Shown here one piece after another: positions 4,760-20,139 of a stretch of DNA of 41,153 bases; positions within the stretch are counted from its first letter, which is position 1, and every line of letters starts with the position of its first letter. The DNA is from Ectocarpus siliculosus (taxonomy: Eukaryota > Sar > Phaeophyceae > Ectocarpales > Ectocarpaceae), in the NCBI GenBank assembly GCA_000310025.1, contig FN649729.1, positions 3,851,632 to 3,892,784 of the forward strand. The letters are read 5' to 3'. Both the position numbers and the translations under genes were made by a program. The notes beneath the pieces were generated by a model. It was given only the letters and a program-made list of their open reading frames with translations, did no database searches and was not told where the DNA came from.

Positions 4760-5649
4760 ACGCGGGGTTTACCCATCATCAGTGTGCCCAGCTTGCAATG
4801 TGCACCGGAGAGCTCCGCAGAATCGGAAATTAATGTTATCGGGAGGAGTTTCTTAGGAAAGATGTGCTGCGCAGTCAAGCGTCGATAGAGGGGCGGAGGA
4901 GCGTTGAGACAACAGGAAAAAAGTCCGGGAAAAAAAAACAAGAAATGGAGCCATTTCAGATCAAAAACAAACTGTAAGAAGAATGCAGCATGCATTCACT
5001 CGAAAAGGAACATAGAATGTGTGTCGTCCTTGTGCAGAACGCATGCAAATGCATTTTTGCCTAAAGCGAGAAAATGATTAAACGAAGTATCGTGTGTATA
5101 TTGTATGATCATAGGTCATTCGCTCTTGAGAGCAGGGTAGGGGGTGTGTACTCACTCATCATATAGTCGTGCATCGTAGCCGTTAGACCATTTGGCCTCG
5201 CATCCCTACAAAGCCGGGACGGAGCACGCCGTGTTCTCAACGGACCAGCCTCTCACATCACCAAGCGCGAAGCGCCGTGAGGCGTTCGGTGAGTCGCATG
5301 CAGAAGGGTGCGCTGCATCCTGCTAGGGTGTTCGGCATCCTGTGCTTATTGTACTCCTTGCGTACAGATGACAGCTGCGTATGACTTTATTATTTCCTGG
5401 CGCTTTCACTTCCAAGACAGTTGCAAGCGCTGCTGTGTAACTGCCTCTATGGTGCTTGATTGACCAATTTAACACAACGTGGTGCGAATATCCCCCCTGC
5501 GCGGAGTGAGGGTTCTCGACCCCGCACAACATATTAATCTACTCGACCACCATTTATGGTTGCCGAAAAATACAACAAAGGCGAAAAAAACAACAAAAAG
5601 AGCTGGGGGGGATGAAGAAAAGCTTACACTATTAGAATGAAAAAAGAAA
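4760..5649. other. Intergenic region, nothing recognised
   Basis: No supported gene. On the minus strand at about 5160-5205 there is a sequence like the 5' half of a tRNA (A-box-like TGGTCTAACGG), but no T arm or matching 3' acceptor strand follows. Confidence 0.4.
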
Positions 5650-5721
5650 CTCCCTCGCCGGGAATTGAACCCGGGTCTCATCGGTGAGAGCGATATATCC
5701 TAACCATTGGACTACGAAGGA
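5650..5721 (-). tRNA. tRNA-Glu (anticodon CUC), copy 1
   Basis: A complete 72-nt cloverleaf reads on the minus strand. The acceptor stem TCCTTCG/CGAGGGA has one G-U pair. The D arm is GTCC/GGAT, the anticodon arm is TATCG-CTCTCAC-CGATG with anticodon CUC, the variable loop is four bases, and the T arm is CCGGG-TTCAATT-CCCGG with a canonical B box. There is no intron and CCA is not encoded, as expected for a nuclear tRNA gene. A T-rich Pol III terminator (run of six T) follows within about 5 bases downstream. It is identical to the gene at 19823-19894. Confidence 0.95.
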
Positions 5722-6551
5722 ATTGCTCGACAGAAGCGCTGTGAACTCGGCACATACATACATTGGACTTCGTACTTACCAGTGCTTTGCCATCGACAGA
5801 CCATCACTCACCCATCGCCCATAAGTATAATGTACCTCACTCAACGCATTGGTCCATGCACCGTAAGGATGGGGGTCTGGCACGGATCGGCGTCTTGGCA
5901 CATCGGCGCGAAAGAAACGTTGCCTTTATTTTCAGACTAACGAACATGCCTGGTTGCCATCCTTGCACACAACGCATATAGATACAATTGTTCAAGCCAA
6001 GAGCGAGAAAAATATGAACGAAGCGAAACGTCCTGTACAGTATTGCAGATCTTATTATGCGCATGAGAGCAGCAAAAATGTTTTGCACCCAAAGGGACGC
6101 ATGCAAGCTATGCACCCACACCTTTTCTACCGACGGAACCACCAAGATCGACCTAGGTCTTCTCCAAGGCCCACCAACGTACCAACTACCCACGTCAGGA
6201 CCAACCTAGCACCTATCCAAGCCAATACCAACATAGGTTTATCGCATCAACACCAACCTAGCATCTATCCGAGGAATTGTACCAACCCAGAGATCTTCCC
6301 ATCAACACCAACCTAGCGCCATTGCCGGCACACCAACAACCTAGAACTGAGTGAGCCACCCAGCGCCAACCTACCATCTATTGGGCGGGTTTGGGGTTAG
6401 GGTTAGAGTTAGCGTCAGGGATTTCAGCCGGTTTCAGGCCTGTGCCAAAGCAGAAAATCAATCTAATAATGTTTAGATATACCCTCGAATTGCTTTGTTT
6501 TAATGTAAACAAATCAACTACATGTAGTAGGTGCTGGTTGAAGGGACAGAG
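5722..6551. other. Intergenic region with degenerate ACCAACCTAG repeats
   Basis: No gene is supported. From about 6140 to 6375 the motif ACCAACCTAG or close variants recurs roughly nine times. It is followed by a telomere-like GGGGTTAGGGTTAGAGTTAG at 6393-6412. Confidence 0.45.
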
Positions 6552-6556
6552 GACAC

Positions 6557-7043
6557 TGTTGGGTGGCTTGGTGCGCCCGGCGCAGTTGTAGACGGCAAAA
6601 ATAAAAGAACCGCGCGGCGAGTTTGCCGGCAACGATAAAATACAGTAAACTGCCCACGGGTGTGGTAACCCGCCGCATCTATGATGTTCCGGAGCGTGAT
6701 AGCTCTGATGTGTTGACGCTGGTGCTGTGATAGCTGTTGTGATGGCGTGATAGCCTAGAGGCGTGAAAGCCTGGCAGCGTGATAGCTGGTGGATAGGTAG
6801 TATGGGCACGGGCGTGATAGCCCAGGGCGTGATAGCCGGGAAAAAAGGAAGATGAATTAATCAAGGGCACGTGGCCAACACCGTTGCAGACACGCATACC
6901 CAGAAAACAAGAATATGTGGCAAAGATGGTACCACCATTCCCCCAATTTATTACAACTGCGGAACCCCCAAAATTCCCCGCTCCATCTTCTAGGAACATT
7001 CCTCGGTTGCAATAATCTGTCAATGCTGTGAGTACATCCAACA
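6557..7043 (-). repeat. Element 1 left LTR (3' LTR in element sense)
   Basis: The 487-bp LTR has TGTTGG...CCAACA ends. It holds about seven copies of the motif GCGTGATAGC (6690-6840, one variant GCGTGAAAGC), which look like a small enhancer-type array. The polypurine tract lies directly outside at 7044-7053. Confidence 0.93.
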
Positions 7044-7053
7044 GCCCCCCTGC

Positions 7054-9471
7054 TCGCTGCATTGTCAAGATTATTCCCGAACTTGCTTATATTATGCATC
7101 ACACGAAACCCATCCCAAAAACTCCAGAAATCAATGTCATTGTGCAACAGTCGTTTCTCCTCCCATTCTCTTGCAACAACCATAAACCATTAAACCAGAG
7201 AGACTAGTTCGAACTTCCATTGGTCGCAAACGAACCAGAAACACCTTCTACCAGAATCTCCATCGGTCTCCATTGTATCCAGAATCTCCAAAGATCAAAA
7301 CATTCACTAAAAACCATTAAACCAGAAACACTTGATTGGAATTCCCATCGGTTCCAAACCATTAAACCAGGAACACCACCAACACTTTCCATCGGTCGCT
7401 CATGAATTTCAAATTCCCAATATCAAATCATCCAAAACTCAAATCGTGGAAAGAACCGCAATGGGTTATATCAGGAACAAATTAAAACAAACACAAATGA
7501 AAACACATCCAACACCGTCCGGGACAAATCACTTTCCGAGGATACTTCAAATCCACAAGTAGCACAAGAATCATGATTGCACAAAAATGCTCGACTCCAC
7601 AATACCTCATCCTCATAACAACACGAAGACCATCAATACAAAAAAACCCTTTCGAGTATTTTCCATCGGCCAATCTTGAATTCAATGTCCAACAAACACG
7701 ATGAAATTACAAACCAGAATACCTCAGCAACATGGGAGCAACACCAAACCTGCCTCAGAAACAAAATCTCCTTGAAACATGTGACATCGCTACGTGCCCT
7801 GCCTGCGTGGTTGACAGCGAGAGGTACATTGGAGTCATGGAATGCTACAAAGATAGGCCCCCCTTCTTTTTTCATTATTTTTCCTCAAACACAAACCTTC
7901 GTTCAGTTTCCTACAATACCTTTTATTTTCTTCCTGCATACCCTACCCATGCATGTCTGGCTGCGGCCCCCCTTCTCCGAACACCAGACGTGAAGGGATC
8001 AACCCTCTACTTGATAAACGCATCTTGTGACATTTGGGTACTGGAAACAACCCCAAAATCGCAACCTGCATTGTCAAATCCCGAACTCTGCAAATCGAAC
8101 ATCGAAAACAGACGAAACATTCCATTCTTCGTAACATTGCTGTAGTTAATTGTCATGACACACCAATTCCCCCCCCAATGACAATTGACAACAGCATCGA
8201 AGACATAGCATTTTATATAAATAGAGGGGTTACCCCTGGCCGATGGTACATGGAGAGGCGCGCCAAACACACAGGGGACAACAACAACGTAGATAGAGCC
8301 TTCTACCTAAAAAAATGCCACACGCAGAAGGAAAAAACAAAAACAACAAGCACAACCAAAGTAGCGGCCTTCGCGACATGGCCGCAAGGATTCAAACCAA
8401 TAACCCTATTCCATCATCATGATCCTTTCTGAACAGTTTCAACGCAGCCTTCATGCCGTCAAATATTCTTGCAGGTGCAATTTCAATCGCAAAACCAAAT
8501 CCGAAAGAACGCCGAAACAAGCCAAAACCAAAAACCAAACAAAAAAACAATTCCGGATCCACAAACCCGCATACATCTGTCACTAAACCGCCGTTGCCCG
8601 TGGTTTCCATCCCCGCTGGGCGATGCATCCTTCTCTGGAAATTATCTCAAACCGTCAACAGCACAGAACCATTCTCAGACAAATACCAAACAAGCGGCAG
8701 CGCTGCATCAGAAAAACATCGGAATGGGGACGGACAATTCTGAGGAAAACAGCTTCAAAGAGTAGGCACAAAAACTCAAACGAAACAATGTTACAATTTC
8801 TTGGACGACAGAAACGAGTATTCGGAAAGCACATAGGCCCTAACAATCACTCCTGCCAACTCCTTGCTCCAGTATAGTCGTTGAGCACCAAACTAAACAG
8901 TGCGCACACGCAAATCGGTGCCGCCGTTGCTGTCCACGAAACGGATAGAAAACTAAACAAACATATAGACAGCCCCCCCTGCTGTCACATCCCGAAACAT
9001 ACCCCTTACATTTCCAGAGTTCATGCAAGAACACTCCGCGAATATCAAAATGCCAACTAACAAACATGTAGACAGCCCCCCTGCAAAGGTAGCTGTTCAT
9101 ATGGGGAAACAAAAACAAATCGATTGCTGTTCATGCCCTCTAGAATCATGGTCACACATGACATCCCCCCCCCCATGATTCTGGATGTACATAAAAACAG
9201 CAACAAACAAAGAAGAAAAAACCAGTGCAAAAGTAAAACGCGCTGCCAGAAAGAAAGGCAAAAAAAACTAAACTAAACACGAAACCCACATTGTTAGATC
9301 AGACTCGATGTCGTCGCGCGATGCAAGGCGCGTCACGAGCCCAAACGGAGTGCCCCGCTCGGAGGGGCGACCCCCAGCAGGTTGTTCTTGATCTCCCACA
9401 TGCACCCCTCCCAAACATCCTGTTCTCCACCGCCCTCCATCTCGTCGCTCCCCAGCTCGCCTTCCCCCAGC
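7054..9471. other. Element 1 non-coding internal region
   Basis: This A/C-rich 2.4 kb on the plus strand has no pol motifs. It contains degenerate short repeats (AAACCATTAAACCAG and CCATCGGT at 7180-7400). Two copies of AACAAACATRTAGACAGCCC followed by CCCTG lie near 8957 and 9060, and on the minus strand they repeat the polypurine-tract motif found at the LTR boundary. Confidence 0.6.
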
Positions 9472-11850
9472 TCACCGGTCCGTATCATCCCAGGCCAAAT
9501 CATCGGCTTGCCGTTCAATACGCGCCGTCGGAGATGGATGTGGTCCATCGGCCTCGGAGGTCGGCACCGATTTGCGTGTCGGCAACGGCGCGGCGGCAGT
9601 AACAGCGGCGGGCAGCGGAGCGGCGGTAGTCCTCGTCGCAGTCATCCGCGGGTCCGGCAGCGCGGCGACATCCGGCGAGGATGCAGGCGGCACGGGGGCC
9701 CCGGGACTTGGCGGCAGCGGCGGCGGTGCTGCAGCGGCGGCGGCGGCTGCAGGCCAAGGCGCAGCGGTGGCAGCGGGCTGCGAAGCGGTGATGGCCCCGG
9801 GTCCCAACTCCCTGGGGAGGGTGTTCCCTTGTTGCTTGGCAGTCAAACTCAAAACGGGTTGGGGAAAGTAGCCAGCGCGGTGGTGGAAAACGTCAACATC
9901 CATTTGTTCGGCACGACCCAACACATCCACATCACACTTAGACGCAACACCTTCCCTCGCATCAAACATCCCCGCACTCGCCCCCGAGTCTCCCTGCAAC
10001 TGCTCACCACCTTTGGGTGTTGACATCCTAGTGTGCCATACCGGGGCTTGAAAGGTCACAGCAGGCTTCACGACAGGAACCACAGGAACATCAGGCACAG
10101 ACATACCAGCAACGGGAACACCAGACACCTCCCCATCACTAACAACTCTAACCTCATTTCCAGACACAGAATCAGACTCGCCTAGAGAATTCACACTACG
10201 TGTGAGGAAGAGACGAAGAGGGGCGCCACTTGCTGGAGGAATGTCGCCCGGAGGTGGAGAGGGGGTCGCGGTCGAGGAGGCAGAGGTCGTTGGATTAGCG
10301 CCGATGTACTGCTGCTGCTGCTGCTGCTGCTGCTGAGTCGCCGGCTGAGTAGCGGTGCTAAAGGCCTCGTTGAAGACTCGCTGCTCATCAGCGTCGGGCC
10401 CTGCAGAACGGGGACAGAACGCGCGGCCCCGACCCCAGCTTGCCCCTTGGTCGAGTTGGTGCAGCTGCTCTCGATATGATCCGCCCGACAAGCGCCCCGA
10501 TTCTTGCCCCCCGGCCTGAGGAAAACCTGGTCCCCGCATACCGTCCCTCTCGCGAATGAACGCCATGAAGTCGTTGTAGTGGAACAAGAAGTCCTTGCGA
10601 AGTTTATGGCAGTCCGGGGTGTTGTGGGAGGAGTTCGCTCCGTGAACCTGGCAGAAGAAGGCACCTCTCTGCTCATGAGATGGTCCGCCATCCGCTCCCG
10701 CAGCAGCTGCTCTCCTCATGCCGCCGTCCCGGCCCGCGCCGGCAGCGACGGGCGCATGCCTCGTGTCCTCGATCCCCTCCCCAGACCTCCGTTTGATCCT
10801 CTGCTCGTGCTCGACCAGCCTCAGCGTCTCTTCCAGAGTACCTCTCGAAAGCATGGGGTGGAACAGAATACGGTCTTTGACATCGTCGTACATTGGGAGC
10901 AAGCCACGTGCAAAGTGTCTCGACATTAACGTCTCCTCTCGATTGTCCCCACAAGACTGTAATTGCATCCACACAGTATTCGCTCTTCCCCAGTAGTCGA
11001 CCAGAGTCTCTCCATGCTTCTGCCTAAGGCAGTTCCAAGTGCCGTCCAGGATTTATCTCTCATGCGTCCTGCTTGTAGTGTAGTAGGACTGAAACACTCT
11101 CCACCCTGCTTGTGGACTCTCTGAAGCTAGTATCTGGTCTAGTATAGGTTGAACGTTGATTTTCGTGATCAAGCACATCCAGACTCTCGTGGCCTTTCGA
11201 ACACTTTCATCGCCATACCTCTGCCGCAACCAAGTCTTATCGACGTGCAACGAACCCACAGGAATCTCTTCTCCTCTCATGATCTCTTCAAGACCCTCTG
11301 CATCCATCCACCCTGAGAAACAACTCGTAAAAATTCGGAACGCGACAGTCACACTTCGATCCTTCAAGAAAGCATCATTCCACTCAGGTACTTCGACTCT
11401 CTCTCTCAGCTTCAACTCTATGGGCTGGGAACTTGACGTGCCTGAGCGGACGTCATGTCCCGGAGTCTGGGAGGCGAAGTTGGCAACCCGGCGGAGGAGG
11501 TCGACAAGGGCGATAGTTGGATCTTGTTCCCCTCCATCCGCGGCTGCTTTCGTTCCTCCCTGCTGGTCCACATCGGGGAGGTTCAACGAACCTCGTCCTT
11601 CCCCCCCGTTGTCTTCCCCGTGGGGAGAGGAACTAGTCCCTGGTCCCCGCGGAGGTCTTCGTCCATCTCCTCCAGCCGTCTTATTCGCGCAGACACAGCA
11701 GCCACTTTCTTGATCTATTACGCTAGCGTGTTGGGTGGCTTGGTGCGCCCGGCGCAGTTGTAGACGGCAAAAATAAAAGAACCGCGCGGCGAGTTTGCCG
11801 GCAACGATAAAATACAGTAAACTGCCCACGGGTGTGGTAACCCGCCGCAT
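9472..11850 (-). CDS. Element 1 gag-like polyprotein, interrupted by one in-frame TAA
   Basis: One minus-strand frame runs from an ATG inside the LTR (11850) to TGA at 9472-9474. It is broken only by TAA at 11053-11055 (codon 266), and both parts are in the same frame. The first part carries an acidic/Gly-rich N-terminus and a helical domain. After the stop come W-x-x-L...Y...A/L-rich helices, FARGLLPMYDDVKDRI (a gag_2/UBN2-like Copia gag pattern) and EETLRLVEHEQRIKRR. A zinc-knuckle-like FCQVHGANSSHNTPDCHKL follows near 10640. The C-terminus is low-complexity: a poly-Gln run coded by nine CTG on the plus strand (10309-10335), then Ala/Pro-rich sequence. There is no protease or pol. Gag would package the element's RNA. 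The stop may be a mutation or a recoding site, and the sequence alone does not decide. Confidence 0.75.
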
Positions 11851-12215
11851 CTATGATGTTCCGGAGCGTGATAGCTCTGATGTGTTGACGCTGGTGCTGT
11901 GATAGCTGTTGTGATGGCGTGATAGCCTAGAGGCGTGAAAGCCTGGCAGCGTGATAGCTGGTGGATAGGTAGTATGGGCACGGGCGTGATAGCCCAGGGC
12001 GTGATAGCCGGGAAAAAAGGAAGATGAATTAATCAAGGGCACGTGGCCAACACCGTTGCAGACACGCATACCCAGAAAACAAGAATATGTGGCAAAGATG
12101 GTACCACCATTCGCCCAATTTATTACAACTGCGGAACCCCCAAAATTCCCCGCTCCATCTTCTAGGAACATTCCTCGGTTGCAATAATCTGTCAATGCTG
12201 TGAGTACATCCAACA
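11729..12215 (-). repeat. Element 1 right LTR (5' LTR in element sense)
   Basis: This is the direct copy of the left LTR and the gag frame opens inside it. In element sense the internal region starts CGCTAGCG, a perfect 8-bp palindrome, and not the usual TGG of a tRNA primer-binding site. Confidence 0.93.
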
Positions 12216-12399
12216 GACACTGCGCCGGTTAGTAGAGCGACAAGTGGAAGAAACGGATACATTGTTCGTGAAGCTCGTTCCTCACACAGGATTTCCGTCG
12301 GTGAAAGGTGTGGGTGCATGGCTTATATTATGCGTCCATTTGGGTGCATATAGTCTAAATTGTAAAAAAAAGTCGTAAAAAAAATGTTTCGTTCTCAGA

Positions 12400-13590: not shown

Positions 13591-14109
13591 CTGGTGAAAG
13601 GTGAGTTCCCGGAGCCAACGCCATCCGCTTCTCGTCGTGCGCCTATGGACTCGGTGCGTGCGGGAGGTTCGCCATCGCCTACTTTTTCCGTAACGCTGGC
13701 GGGAGCTTCGGGGACCGCCGCTGGGGAGGGAATCTCCATCGCTGTACCGGATTGTGTGGAACAAGATGGCCATCATGTTATTCTCTCGCTTACTGTTGAC
13801 ACGCGTGCAACTCACCTCCCTTTTAGCTCGACCCATCGGGTTGATGCTGTGGCAGCATGGCATTCGTGTCGAAGGTTTGCAGAACCGTTTTTCCACGATA
13901 GGCATGTGCAACATGTTCAATTTGGAGACCTCCTTGACCCGCACTTTCTCAACTAACTCCATTACCCCGTTTGAGCGCATCAATGTACACCAGCTACTAC
14001 TCGGCCTTCGCCATGCCCACTGGCCGCAGCACGACGACGCTGAGCAGTTCGGTCAACCTGCGGACAACCGCTCGTACGCCGGATCGCCGCGAGGGCAGGG
14101 CGGCTATCC
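13591..14109. other. Possible continuation of the decayed sequence
   Basis: Two overlapping plus-strand frames stay open here (for example 13594-13956 and 13754-14461) without a domain I recognise. The second runs into repeat DNA, which argues against it being a real gene. Confidence 0.3.
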
Positions 14110-14402
14110 GCATCGTTTGTCCTACTACGGCTTGTTTTGTGTCGGCACGGCTCACAACTATCATTCAAGCCACCGGACACCCCAATGGGACCAGTGGGTG
14201 GAGGGAAACGCCCAACCATGGGAACGCAGTGACTCAAGGGCCGGTGGAGCAGATACGCTTAACTGCTCCACCAGGCCAAACTCTATCTACCAGGTGCTGT
14301 TTGTCTTACGAAGACTTCCATTGTGTTGGCCCGGCCCACAACTATCATACAAGCCATCGGACACCCCAATCGGACCAGTGGGTGCAGAGAAACGCCAACC
14401 CA
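14110..14402 (+). repeat. ~180-bp tandem units, left arm, first part
   Basis: About one and a half units of a ~180-bp repeat. Each unit contains the hairpin GGTGGAGCAG...CTGCTCCACC, a TCTTACGAAGAC block, and a CAACTATCATACAAGCCATC block. The second unit is split by LTR element 2 at 14402/14403 and resumes at 17468. The same units recur in inverted orientation at 18655-19330. Confidence 0.85.
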
Positions 14403-14671
14403 TGTTGATCACTCCTAGAGCCGGAGTGCTTGCCGGGTATGCCCGTATTTGTGTCCAGTGACTAGAAAGTCTCGTTGATAGCTTGTATTAGATCCGCAGG
14501 ACAAACGCACGACAGACAGGGGGGAGAGAGAGTGCCCCACACAGGCTGACGCATCATGGGGGCGCCGCAGACTCATCCAAGTCTACCACAACAGGTACCA
14601 CAGCAGGTCCCTTCATCTACGGAACACAGAACCGTCCTCAGATCCTTCCTACATATGCACACACACGAGCA
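14403..14671 (-). repeat. Element 2 left LTR
   Basis: 269 bp, starting TGTTGATCACTCC and ending GAGCA. It is a near-identical direct copy of 17199-17467, and ACCCA lies directly outside. Confidence 0.9.
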
Positions 14672-15419
14672 CCCTCCCTGGTTCCTTACGCTAGTAATTA
14701 ACCACCACCGTGTGTTGTTCAACGTACTCGGACACTACCGAAAAATCAAACAGAAAAAAAAAAGGCGTTGCGAGGGAAAACCCGGCCTCCGAGCCAAAAA
14801 CGCTCGCAATAATTCCACGACTACCGAAATAAAACCATCATCGTTGTCATCTCAACTACTTCAATTCCCTACAAACGAAGGCCAATTACAGCGCTACGTT
14901 GGCATATGAACTACTTCAATTCCCCTACATGGCGACATACCAAGCGGACCAAACTACATCGATGGTTCGGATGATCATCTCAACATTTTAAGGGAAAAAA
15001 CAAACATATAACTAAACCAACGTTAGCTGAACACAGCTGTGCTCCCCCTTGACATCTGGCCTACAATTCGAACACCAAGGAACGACGTTGATACGGTCCA
15101 AACACGGTAGCGACTGTTGAGGGGATGTCGTCAGAGGCATGCGCGTTCACTAACATCGGGTTAACGCCACAATGGATGCCCTCCCATATTGTGCGACTAC
15201 ACACAAAAAAACTCAAATTGCTACCAGTATTCTCTGCCAAGAAAACTCAAATTGCTACCAGTATTCTCTGCTACAGGTACCAACCGGATTGTCGGTCTTG
15301 GCGGGGGTCTTCTCTCCATTGCCAAGCGGACTCCGGCTCCTCCCAACCACCGGCAAGAAAAAACCTGCTGCTGCTCACCACCCTGGTAAGCGCGCCGACT
15401 ACAACGACAAATGCCCACG

Positions 15420-16285
15420 CTGCCCCCCCTACATCTGGAAGCGCGTTGGCGGAGATCTGTGATGACTGCTGTGCAGCTCCCCCCTTCATCTGGAGAACCG
15501 TCCAACCGAAAAGCCCTGCGCTGCCCCCCCTTCATCTGGAGGCGCGGAGGTGAAGAAAATGCTGCCCTCCCCTACATCTGGAGAGCGTTGACCCGCGTTG
15601 CCCCCCCTACATCTGGAGGCGTGCCGGTGAAGAAAAGTTGCCCTCCCCTACGTCTGGAGAGCGTTGACCCGCGTCGCCCCCCCTACATCTGGAGGCGTGC
15701 CGGTGAAGAAATGTTGCCCTCCCCTGCATCTGGAGAGCGTACACCCGCGCCGCCCCCCTACATCTGGGGGCGCGCGGGTGAAGAACTTCTGCCCTCCCCT
15801 ACATCTGGAGAGCGTTATCCCGCGTTGCCCCCCCTACATCTGGAGGCGTGCCGGTGAAGAAACGTTGCCCTCCCCTACATCTGGAGAGCGTTGGCCCGTG
15901 CTGCCCTCTCTACATATGGAGGTGCACGGGTAAGGAACTACTGCCCCCCACGTCTGGGGTGCATCGGCTGGCGCTGCCCACCCTACATCTGGAGGCGCGC
16001 TGTTGTGTAACCACTGCTGTACGTCCCTCCCCTACATCTGGAGGGCGTATACTGATGCCCTCCCCCTTTTTTTCTGGTGAGAACACCTGTGAGATATTTA
16101 CGCTACCCCCCCTACATCTGGGGGTGCGTGTTAGTACCCTCCCCTACATCTGGAGAGCACATCTTCGAATGTTTTTTGCGCTACCCCCCCTTCGACTGGG
16201 GGTGCGTGTCAGTGTCAGTACCTTCCCCTACATCTGGAAAGCACAATTTTAAGAACTCACGTCGCCCCCCTACATCTGGGAGCGT
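15420..16285 (+). repeat. CCCCTACATCTGGAG minisatellite inside element 2
   Basis: About 21 copies of the core CCCCTACATCTGGAG are spaced mostly 33-41 bp apart. From 15560 to 15900 they form a ~73-bp dimer: one half ends GAGAGCGTTG, the other GAGGCGTGCCGGTGAAGAA. The minus strand reads CTCCAGATGTAGGGG, a purine-rich motif reminiscent of polypurine tracts. Plus-strand open frames across the array are by-products of repeats whose period is often a multiple of three. Confidence 0.9.
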
Positions 16286-16611
16286 GGAGTGTTGGGGCTG
16301 GGTATCATGGGTTCCCTTACAAGGCTTCGCACGCAACATCTAGCTCATCTTGCGAGAATATGACCGCTATAAACGCTCGGGTATGTCATCGAATGAAGAC
16401 GAACTACAGTTGTTGCTCAACAAAACACTCACACTCAAGAATGGAAACGCACGAACCGCGAATCCCCTTTCGAAAACATCATTGGCTGTCTAATCGTAAG
16501 CGAAACTACAGACGCTCTACGAACACCAAATCAGAAATAGAAACGCCTGAACTGCGAATCCCCTTTAGAAACTTTCAGTATCATTCGTCACAAGCAAGAT
16601 CATTCAAGAAA

Positions 16612-17136
16612 TCACTCACGAATCAACCAGAATGAAGTGTCCGCGGCAATGCCGCGCTGTTGTTGGGCCTCGTTCAAAAGCAAAGCAGTATTGCGCGGTT
16701 TTGCTCCTTTGCGACAAGTCGACATCCACCAGAATCGCCATGAATGCAATACTCCAGCTCTCTCGGAGCGAGTACTTTTCCCGCGATCAACAGGCTCGTG
16801 TGTTGCGCCGCCCGCTACTCCACCGCTGACGCCGCCGCTGTCCCGAGCACCAGGGCCCACAGTCTCGGGTAGGTTCCCTGCGGTGGAAACCCTCCCGGTT
16901 CCCCCTAGGATTCCAACCGCACCCCCCACGGCGCCCCCGTCCACCACGGCGCCGTGTGACCCTCCTCTTCCTCCGTCTCGCGTGGGCTGCTGGAGCAAAA
17001 GTCCCTCGAAGCTACCGAGTGGCTGCTCCATCCTCGCCTCGGCCCTGTTCTGCTTCTCCTCAAAGCGTTCTGTCAACGCCCGCTTAACATCTCCGAGTTT
17101 AGCGGCGAGCTCCTGCTGCGAGACTCCTCCCGACAT
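16612..17136 (-). CDS. Element 2 gag-like N-terminal protein, hypothetical
   Basis: From the first ATG in the internal region (17134-17136) the minus-strand frame gives 174 aa, beginning MSGGVSQQELAAKLGDVKRA. A predicted amphipathic coiled coil (ALTERFEEKQNRAEARMEQ) is followed by a Gly/Val-rich linker. The frame is also open upstream into the LTR. Its position directly after the element's 5' LTR, and the coiled coil plus low-complexity composition, suit a truncated gag. No zinc knuckle, protease or pol follows. Confidence 0.5.
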   Translation of the reverse strand: MSGGVSQQELAAKLGDVKRALTERFEEKQNRAEARMEQPLGSFEGLLLQQPTRDGGRGGSHGAVVDGGAVGGAVGILGGTGRVSTAGNLPETVGPGARDSGGVSGGVAGGATHEPVDRGKSTRSERAGVLHSWRFWWMSTCRKGAKPRNTALLLNEAQQQRGIAADTSFWLIRE

Positions 17137-17198
17137 GTTGCTGGCACGGGCTCTTTCGTTTCCTTGCAAGGACGATGGAGAAATAAAGAACTCTAGAG

Positions 17199-17467
17199 TG
17201 TTGATCACTCCTAGAGCCGGAGTGCTTGCCGGGTATGCCCGTATTTGTGTCCAGTGACTAGAAAGTCTCGTTGATAGCTTGTATTAGATCCGCAGGACAA
17301 ACGCACGACAGACAGGGGGGAGAGAGAGTGCCCCACACAGGCTGACGCATCATGGGGGCGCCGCAGACTCATCCAAGTCTACCACAACAAGTACCACAGC
17401 AGGTCCCTTCATCTACGGAACACAGAACCGTCCTCAGATCCTTCCTACATATGCACACATACGAACA
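17199..17467 (-). repeat. Element 2 right LTR
   Basis: 269 bp, starting TGTTGATCACTCC and ending CGAACA. It is followed at once by the ACCCA target duplication. Confidence 0.9.
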
Positions 17468-17575
17468 ACCCACGGGGGGTCAGCGGCTCAAGGGCCGGTG
17501 GAGCTTAACTGCTCCACCAGGCCAAACTCTATCTACACCGGGCGCTGATCGTCGTACGAAGACTGTGACAGGATA
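17468..17575 (+). repeat. ~180-bp unit, left arm, remainder after element 2
   Basis: The interrupted repeat unit resumes with ACCCACGGGGGGTCAGCGGC and the GGTGGAGC...GCTCCACC hairpin. It then degenerates into the spacer that precedes the satellite. Confidence 0.8.
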
Positions 17576-17815
17576 GGGGCACCCCCTGGATATGGGAAAT
17601 TTTCTCAAACGGGCTCCCCTCCGGGCTAACGGGCACTCCTCCCCACCCACCCCGACTAACGGGCACCCCCCCAATAACGCCCCCCTCCTGGTGGTTTGGG
17701 GCACTCCCCCTCAACTAACGGCACTCTCCGTCAACAACGGCCACCCCACCTCCATTGCCGGTATTCCTCTCTGCTCACGGACACCTCTTGGCGCCGTGTT
17801 CGGACGGTGAAGTGC
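17576..17815 (+). repeat. TAACGGGCACCCCC degenerate repeats
   Basis: A C-rich spacer with about five variants of CTAACGGGCACYCCYCC. It lies between the ~180-bp units and the 22-bp satellite on the left side. No counterpart is seen at the mirror position on the right. Confidence 0.55.
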
Positions 17816-18655
17816 TCTGTATGTAGTATACACTGTATTTCCTGGACACATACAATGTATTTGTTGATCAGATACGCTCAACACTGTATTCCCTGAGCAG
17901 ATTCACTGTATTCCCTCATCAGATACACCGTATTCCCTCGCTTGTTTCACTGTATTCCATCACCAAATGCATTGTATTCCCTGGTCAGGATCATTGTATT
18001 TCCTTATCCGATACACAGTGCTCGTCGTACTTTTCACTGTATTCCCTGAGTATATATCATGTGTTCCCTCATCAGATACACCGTATTGCCTCGTTCGTTT
18101 CACTGCATTCCCTCATCAACTACACTGTTTTCCCTGGTCAGGATCCCCGTATTCCCTCTTCAAATACACTACCTTATTCCTTGTACTTTTCACTGTATTC
18201 CCTAACCAGATTCAATGTATCCCTCATCAGATGTGCACGCCGTGGAATGCAGTGAATCTGATGAAGGAATACAGTGTATCTGATGAGGGAACACAATGAA
18301 TCTGCTATGGGAATACAGTTTATCTGACGAGGGAATATCGTGTACCTGCTCTGAGAATACAGCGTATCTGATCAGGGAATACAATGTATCTGACGAGGGA
18401 ATACGGCGATTCTGGTAAGGGAATGAAGTGAATCTGATTAGGGAAACATGGTATGTGATGAGGGAGTACAGCGAATCTGCTCAGGGAATACAGTGTATCT
18501 GACGAGGGAATACAGTGTATCCCCTCAGCGAATACAGCGTGTGTGATCTGGGAATACAGTGTATCCCATGACAGCGTAGTATGTGATGAGGGAATACAGT
18601 GAATGTGACTAAAGGATACAGTGAATGTGACGAGGAAATGGCTCAGAGGCCACAT
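17816..18655. repeat. ~22-bp satellite in inverted halves (palindrome core)
   Basis: The left half (about 17825-18235) is a degenerate tandem array of CACTGTATTCCCTCATCAGA. The right half (about 18240-18650) is the same monomer in reverse complement (TCTGATGAGGGAATACAGTG). Orientation flips near 18236-18245, beside GTGCAC. There are about 18 monomers per arm, with frequent point differences. The arrangement is an inverted repeat and not a simple array. Confidence 0.88.
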
Positions 18656-19330
18656 ATCTGCTCCACCGGCCTTTGAGCGATGAGTCCCCATGGGTGGGCG
18701 TTTCCCTCCACCCACTGGTCCCATTGGGGTGCCCGATGGCTTGTATGATAGTTGTGGGCCGGGCCAACACAATGAAAGTCTTCGTAAGACAAACAGCGCC
18801 CGGTGTAGATAGAGTGTGGCCTGGTGGAGCAGTTAAGCTTTTCTGCTCCACCGGCCCTTGAGTCACTGAACCCCCGTGGGTGGGTGTTTCTCTGTACCCA
18901 CTGGTTCGATCGGGATGTCCGATGGCTTGTATGATAGCTGTGAGCCGGGCCAACACAAGGCAAGTCTTCGTAAGACAAACAGCGCCCGGTAGATAGAGTT
19001 TGGCCTGGTGGAGTAGTTAAGCTTATCTGCTCCATCGGCCCTTGAGTCCCTGAGCCCCCGTGGGTGGGCGTTTCTCTGCACCCACTGGTCCGATCGGGGT
19101 ATCCGATGGCTTGAATGATAGCTGTGAGCCGTGCCGACACAATACAAGCCGTAGTAGGACAAACAGCAGTACCCTTAACGAAGAGTTGGCCTGGTGGAGC
19201 AGCTCCACCGGCCCTTGAGCCACTGAGCCCCCGCGTGGGGGCGTTTCTCTGTACCCACTGGTCCGATTGGGGTGGAGGATGGGTTGAATGATAGCTGTGA
19301 GCCTTGCCAACACGATGCGGGCCGAGTTAG
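18656..19330 (-). repeat. ~180-bp tandem units, right arm, inverted
   Basis: Four units begin at about 18658, 18841, 19026 and 19199 (spacing 173-185 bp), each with CTGCTCCACCGGCCCTTGAG. They are reverse complements of the left-arm units at 14.1-14.4 and 17.47-17.57 kb. They include the uninterrupted GTGGGTGGGCGTTTCTCTG site that matches the target of LTR element 2. Confidence 0.88.
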
Positions 19331-19822
19331 GCGTGGTTCAACTATGTGACGGGAGGTATAGCGGGACTATTGCCGGTTACCCCCCCCCTAGATACTGCGG
19401 AACCCCCTCGGTTGACCATATCTCTGCGGGAATATATCGGATGTGAGTGTCTGATAGCTTAGAAGAACGTCATGGACCGTGCAGACACGATGCAAAAGAT
19501 TTGAGGTCAATTGGAGCGGTGTGGACGGAGGTTCGAGACGATTACTGCTTCCTGACATGCTGCGGAACCTCCTTTTTCAGCATAACTCTGCAGCCCCCGG
19601 TCGGATTTAGCTTGTAAGTAGCATTGCAGAAGCTGTAGTCCTACCTACACGATGCAATTAGTTTGAGGTCGATTGGAGCTCTGTGGGTGGAGATCTGCCT
19701 GGTGGAGCAAATAAGAACTTACTCCACCGGTGGAGCAAATAGCATGGCCGTTTAACGGCTTAAAAAATCGTGAGAGCAGGTGAGGAAAAAGAAAAAGCTA
19801 ACTTCAAAATTGGAAAAAGAAA
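19331..19822. repeat. Diverged ~170-bp units beyond the right arm
   Basis: Three degenerate copies of CACGATGC followed about 10 bases later by GAGKT (GAGTT or GAGGT) and an ACTGCGGAACC or TGCTGCGGAACC block recur near 19310, 19485 and 19645. A further CTGGTGGAGC...ACTCCACCGG hairpin lies at about 19693-19730. No gene is seen. Confidence 0.5.
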
Positions 19823-19894
19823 CTCCCTCGCCGGGAATTGAACCCGGGTCTCATCGGTGAGAGCGATATATCCTAACCATTGGACTACGAAGGA
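19823..19894 (-). tRNA. tRNA-Glu (anticodon CUC), copy 2
   Basis: The 72 nt are identical to the tRNA at 5650-5721, with the same cloverleaf and CUC anticodon. A T-rich terminator lies just downstream (TTTCTTTTTCC on the minus strand). Sequence identity with copy 1 ends within about 10 bp on either side. The copies are therefore conserved as genes and not as part of a recent large duplication. Confidence 0.95.
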
Positions 19895-20139
19895 ATTGTT
19901 CTATGGAAGGTTCGAGAATTTAGGGTATATACATGGTTCTTTGCAATCGACCGAGTGTCTCTTGTTCTCGAAATATGTATTGCACCGGGAGCGCTTGTCG
20001 GTGCCTCGCTGCTGCTGCATGCTATCCCACATGCATCGCCCCCAAAACAGTTCTCACTCCAAGCAAACGAAAACGCACGTGGTTTATTTCCTATATGTTG
20101 ATTTTTTTTTCTTCGATGGTCTCCTAGTTATTTTTTTTC

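Follow-up and report, generated by a model that had tools for sequence, protein, structure and literature searches.

Foldback transposons have been described in insects, nematodes and plants. In the FB and FB-NOF elements of Drosophila the foldback arms contain tandem repeats, as they do in the element described here. This element is a palindrome in a stretch of 41,153 nucleotides from the brown alga Ectocarpus siliculosus (G000:C4:3851632-3892784, hereafter the window; the assembly comprises 189 Mb in 492 contigs). We read it, with a probability of nearly nine in ten, as a damaged member of a non-autonomous foldback DNA transposon family whose copies are dispersed. Its terminal inverted repeats are made of a single-copy terminal domain and 184-bp tandem units, its middle is made of two opposed arrays of a 22-bp satellite, and no coding capacity was found in the window copy. 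As far as our searches go, the family is new, although its kind is known.

The systems closest in design are Tetris, Tm1, and Galileo. Tetris, a foldback of Drosophila virilis, is likewise non-autonomous, with a variable middle and no autonomous copy found. Its arms consist of an external single-copy domain and tandem units of ~220 bp, a short stretch is common to the external domain and the unit, complete copies have 8-9 bp duplications, and its arrays expand and seed satellites (PMC4079207), for which the counterpart here is an array of 84 monomers at one locus (L028). This likeness is drawn from descriptions and not from sequence comparison, and the Ectocarpus family differs in its unit of ~184 bp, in the second, 22-bp satellite of its opposed middle arrays, and in its brown-algal host. 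Tm1, a Mutator/foldback element of Meloidogyne, resembles it in its composite tandem-repeat arms, its mostly 9-bp duplications, the likeness between the arms of one element (~93% on average), and its middle-swapped copies; however, Tm1 has units of ~14 bp and a transposase-coding member (PMC3169594), and no transposase was found here. Galileo, of the P superfamily, has similarly long, internally repeated arms, in which the repeats carry further transposase sites, but its transposase is of the P type (PMC3688188).

Two further systems share part of this design. FARE of Arabidopsis has tandem-repeat foldback arms too but encodes a transposase with a Mutator-like (MULE) domain (PMC3169594), and no transposase was found here. 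Rehavkus has 9-bp duplications and a minisatellite beside an inverted repeat, but it differs in its arthropod and annelid hosts, in the placement of the minisatellite before the 3' repeat, and in its PHD-bearing transposase (PMC6446971). The Ectocarpus element carries tandem arrays on each of its two sides, and no transposase was found for it.

The palindrome and its copies elsewhere

We confirmed that the palindrome is real and far beyond chance. In a self-comparison of the window, the units at 14115-14402 matched those at 18877-19164 in inverted orientation, with 90% complementarity over 288 nt. This bears out an earlier note on this DNA that had described units of ~180 bp in opposed outer arms, the unit length being amended to ~184 bp. 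The 22-bp satellite, said in the same note to flip near 18.24 kb, indeed forms opposed arrays: 14 monomers were scored at 17830-18232 in one orientation and 12 at 18256-18518 in the opposite one, while a shuffled 21-kb control gave none at the same score cut-off. Folded as single-stranded DNA, the core at 17820-18660 reached -175.1 kcal/mol, compared to a mean of -95.6 for 20 shuffles (standard deviation, 4.7; z, -16.8). The features of the window copy are as follows.

14107..14402, plus strand: what survives of the 184-bp units in the left terminal inverted repeat (inverted match to 18877-19164)
14403..17467, no strand: later insertion of a long terminal repeat (LTR) element, not part of the foldback element (LTRs at ~14403-14671 and ~17199-17467)
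17468..17564, plus strand: remnant of an inner left-arm 184-bp unit (inverted match to 18777-18881, 86%)
17565..17829, plus strand: middle-domain spacer, left side (spanned by alignments of other copies that start at 17466)
17830..18232, plus strand: array of the 22-bp satellite in its first orientation, with 14 scored monomers (Tandem Repeats Finder, TRF)
18233..18255, no strand: palindrome centre with the flip junction (alignable at 19 of the 20 other loci)
18256..18654, minus strand: array of the 22-bp satellite in the other orientation (12 scored monomers as far as 18518 and weaker ones up to ~18640)
18655..19318, minus strand: terminal inverted repeat on the right, with 3.7 of the ~184-bp units (TRF; orientation relative to the left arm)
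19340..19750, minus strand: right terminal domain, single copy (BLAST to other loci)
19729..19750, plus strand: terminal motif, differing by one base from GGTGGAGCAAATAGCATTGCCG, the family's sequence in outward reading (genome matches; flank junctions)

The right end had been placed at 19730 but lies at 19750, where the terminal motif of 19729-19750 stops, and 19340-19750 therefore belongs to the right arm, outside the 184-bp units. The two parts given for the left arm, 14.11-14.40 and 17.47-17.57 kb, are in place, with three amendments: the arm starts at ~14107-14115, its inner remnant is at 17468-17564, and its outer part is missing. Since the start of the left arm is equivalent to ~19164 of the right arm, ~590 bp, including the terminus, have been lost, and no left terminal domain was found upstream in the window or among the matches listed nearby on contig C4. 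The first 5 bases of the inner remnant are the second ACCCA of the LTR element, which splits the left arm between two copies of this 5-bp duplication and whose LTRs are 98.5% identical. The spacer at 17565-17829 had no inverted counterpart on the right side in the self-comparison.

Searching the genome with the flip region gave 193 matches; 40 of 43 candidates were scored, and hand grouping left at least 40 places. Leaving the window aside, we retrieved the 20 best of these places together with their flanks (L011-L030, on 19 contigs). The 22-bp array switches orientation in the same sense in all 20, and in 19 of them a single alignment spans the flip junction, the centre being recognisably the same with small differences. 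Opposed 184-bp units surround the 22-bp core at 14 of these loci, are rearranged at L028, and stand on one side only at the remaining five (L023, L025, L026, L029, and L030). A middle domain between long, inverted terminal arms that themselves contain tandem repeats is the structure of foldback elements.

The modules are not equally widespread. Eight loci picked by the terminal motif alone (L031-L038) all contained part of the terminal domain, four contained a 184-bp unit, and none contained a 22-bp array. Furthermore, two compact two-ended copies (C116 and C21:1263925-1266412) carry 184-bp arms, and no 22-bp monomer was found in the two middles read (L060 and L061). By these counts the terminus is the most widely shared part in the loci sampled, followed by the 184-bp arm. 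Whether both satellites always occur together, a check suggested in the earlier note, is answered yes in one direction only: 184-bp units were present at all 20 loci picked by the 22-bp array, but 184-bp arms also occur without a 22-bp core. Within this sample, a single subfamily is distinguished by the 22-bp core, and the modular layout is a composite foldback design. Complete copies range from 2,432 bp (C116) to ~4.4 kb (C66), and a relative that shares its flanks with other copies (L031) spans 6.6 kb. The enlarged 22-bp array of L028 has 84 scored monomers over ~2 kb (L028 3960-6024).

Ends, target duplications and arm similarity

Alignments of other copies continue past the 184-bp units and stop at ~19750, at GGTGGAGCAAATAGCATTGCCG or a close variant of it, and the DNA beyond the ends is mostly unrelated and A+T rich. 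Allowing up to 3 mismatches, the terminal motif had 76 matches in the genome, 38 per strand, and the reversed-pattern control had none. The copies are thus dispersed and have fixed ends, as in a foldback transposon.

We then compared the 9 bp on either side of the nine two-ended copies with unrelated flanks. The match was perfect in L011, L012, L021 (one of whose two ends carries a small insertion), and C116, and it was 8/9 in L016 and C66, 7/9 in L013, 6/9 in C21, and 5/9 in L015, so that seven of the nine copies matched at 7 or more positions. Altogether, 70 of 81 bases matched, a value reached by 2 of 362,880 re-pairings of left and right flanks, the true pairing included; non-mate flanks averaged 4.1 matching bases out of 9. 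This test omits L022, L024, and L031, which share flanks, and L038, which has a doubtful end. When these four copies without a duplication were added, 77 of 117 bases matched, which was reached by none of 200,000 random re-pairings. Among duplication lengths of 6 to 12, examined in seven copies, only 9 stood out. The 9 bp outside the ends had an A+T content of 92%, compared to 49% at 200-1000 bp away, as calculated for 14 chosen ends of nine loci, further ends being left uncounted. The suggestion of a foldback-type transposon with satellite-filled arms, with fixed outer ends and target duplications to be expected at other copies, was therefore upheld by dispersed copies, a shared terminal motif, inverted arm pairs, and 9-bp target duplications.

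The two arms of one element tend, as a set, to be more alike than the arms of different elements. In a tree of the terminal domain, arm mates were sisters in five of six two-ended elements (L011, L012, L013, L015, and L016), and the true left-right pairing was the best of 720, with a mean identity of 0.940 between mates and 0.887 between others. Because of these two results, the arms of one element appear to evolve together. The terminus and the 184-bp unit have a motif of ~35 bp in common; it scored 31, whereas the best of 200 shuffles scored 27. We propose that this motif provides extra transposase sites, a role like that of the Galileo repeats.

The 184-bp array contains an open frame of 224-227 aa, a length reached by none of 500 shuffles and 1 of 1000 tiled shuffles. 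In 45 overlapping alignments, mismatches numbered 1152, 908, and 866 at codon positions 1, 2, and 3, and 185 indels were frame breaking versus 36 frame keeping. The long frame is unusual, yet substitutions and indels are without coding constraint, and we rejected the array as coding sequence.

Transposase and competing explanations

The 9-bp duplication suggests a Mutator-like enzyme and is the main positive evidence that such an enzyme moves the family: Mutator-like elements make duplications of 8-11 bp, mostly 9 bp, as found here. A Mutator-like enzyme was argued for Tetris in much the same way from duplication length (PMC4079207). An enzyme encoded outside the element, in all likelihood a transposase of the MULE type, would bind the terminus and the motif it shares with each 184-bp unit, cut the element out, and insert it with a 9-bp stagger. 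The arms would be homogenised by mutual pairing, through hairpins or gene conversion, and unequal exchange or slippage could make the arrays lengthen and shorten. The window copy, once inserted, lost its left end and was later split by the LTR element.

Several observations weigh against a foldback family of this kind. A clear duplication is missing in six of the 13 two-ended copies (L015, C21, L038, L022, L024, and L031), so that, once L038 and the shared-flank group are included, a match of at least 7/9 is seen in 7 of 13. The match was 1/9 in L022 and L024, 2/9 in L031, and 3/9 in L038, whose second end is doubtful; L022, L024, and L031 share flanking DNA and are therefore not independent insertions. 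No empty site of the shared-flank repeat spanning the junction was found, and the window copy, because its left end is gone, offers no assessable target duplication. The arms of L024 are not sisters in the terminal-domain tree, and raw identity places the mate closest for no more than 6 of the 12 arms in the six two-ended elements of that tree. In addition, no transposase was found, P-type transposases not having been searched for. When 45 matches to PF10551 listed in the genome were compared with 81 end positions, the smallest distance was 24.8 kb, and the only MULE locus read (L039) had no similarity to the foldback beyond stretches of 20-31 bp. The eight terminal-motif loci contained 25 frames of at least 170 aa, and none of the 10 frames compared with Pfam, from five loci, matched a transposase.

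As to an autonomous partner among these eight loci, the candidates were rejected: the L036 frame matched reverse-transcriptase RNase H, and the other nine frames had no Pfam match. L039 (C6:1026000-1031000) is one of ~28 loci with a MULE domain frame of nearly the same score; it shows a SWIM-like motif by eye, and no long terminal inverted repeat was seen in its 5 kb.

The rival that survives best, possible if somewhat unlikely, is that a non-Mutator transposase, either P-type like that of Galileo or of an undescribed class, moves the family and that the foldback architecture is convergent. P-type duplications are shorter, at 7-8 bp, and that of Galileo differs from the 9 bp found here, the one length that stood out. 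Nor did the genome contain a match to PF12762, which is Merlin-type; P-type transposases, which have a THAP domain, were outside the search. In favour of such an enzyme, no MULE domain lies near any end among the matches listed, and P-type transposases are known in some foldbacks (PMC3688188, PMC3169594); the length of 9, however, is that of several tabulated groups (PMC6446971). A more specific proposal, which we consider rather improbable, is that an undescribed transposase class peculiar to brown algae moves the family, that the motif repeated in each 184-bp unit is its binding site, that satellite growth in the arms is favoured because it increases mobility, and that the family would then be a source of new satellites.

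It is very unlikely that the copies spread passively within larger duplicated blocks and not by their own transposition. L022, L024, L030, and L031 do share flanks, and L023, L025, and L026 have matching layouts, a likeness by layout alone; but among L011-L020 no flank match adjoins the ends of both elements, and several of these copies have 9-bp duplications. A local origin of the palindrome in sister-chromatid inversion, as the earlier note had offered, or in template switching, without transposition, is scarcely credible: head-to-head arrays with a short centre are the expected trace of such events, and the family's ancestral flip could have begun so, but the ends are fixed and flanked by target duplications, and the junction is not unique to this site. 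Since all 20 other loci switch orientation, 19 of them across one alignable junction, the flip is neither a local event nor an assembly join, and an artefact at 18.24 kb, for which no supporting evidence was found, is practically out of the question with the same switch on 19 contigs.

Surroundings of the copies and wider significance

L022, L024, L030, and L031 sit inside a common larger repeat, the L030 flank also being common to the other three. One flank of this group also occurs alone in inverted pairs (C79 and C9:1629122-1629974) and is probably another inverted-repeat family. The left flank of L017, 1-323 bases outward, matches a stretch of the L013 flank and part of the far flank of L011, in both orientations, and L017 may have inserted into a further inverted-repeat family. 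FNIP-repeat proteins are present in the flanks of L013 and L020. After the right end in the window comes TTTAACGGC, giving GCCG-5 bases-CGGC at 19747-19759; the pattern recurs at the end of the shared-flank group (GCCGATTATCGGC), possibly by chance.

Within the window, the LTR element at 14403-17467 contains an internal 76-bp tandem array at 15518-15997, a 76/151-bp repeat with a CCCCTACATCTGGAG-like motif. Its 223-aa frame had no Pfam match, and the element looks non-autonomous. A second LTR element lies at 6557-12216, with 488-bp LTRs that are 99.8% identical, and its long minus-strand frames at 9475-11850 had no Pfam match. Two tRNA-Glu (CTC) genes with similar flanks, at 5649-5722 and 19822-19895, are ~14 kb apart. 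The window copy ends ~70 bp from tRNA-Glu, but we rejected a choice of targets beside tRNA genes: because no tRNA was present at any of 28 other loci scanned, this nearness is a coincidence.

A brown-algal origin is indicated by PF19114 (EsV-1-7), a domain expanded in brown algae: 150 matches were scored out of 880 candidates. None of 14 controls had a match, which carries little weight because those identified by name are prokaryotes. Our literature searches, whose listings mostly covered a part of the hits and few subscription journals, turned up no title about foldbacks in brown algae or other stramenopiles. The main text of an Ectocarpus transposon survey does not contain the word foldback; its table counts 51 families as unknown DNA and 94 as unknown, and because of these many unknowns the present family may already be among them under another name (PMC12477816).

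Overall, these findings extend satellite-armed foldbacks to the brown algae, a lineage whose transposons are largely unclassified (PMC12477816). If a transposase class yet to be described did move the family, the 84-monomer array of L028 would be the start of a new satellite. With its many copies, the family lends itself to tests of how inverted arms remain similar and how satellites arise from transposons; in other respects it is an ordinary mobile element.

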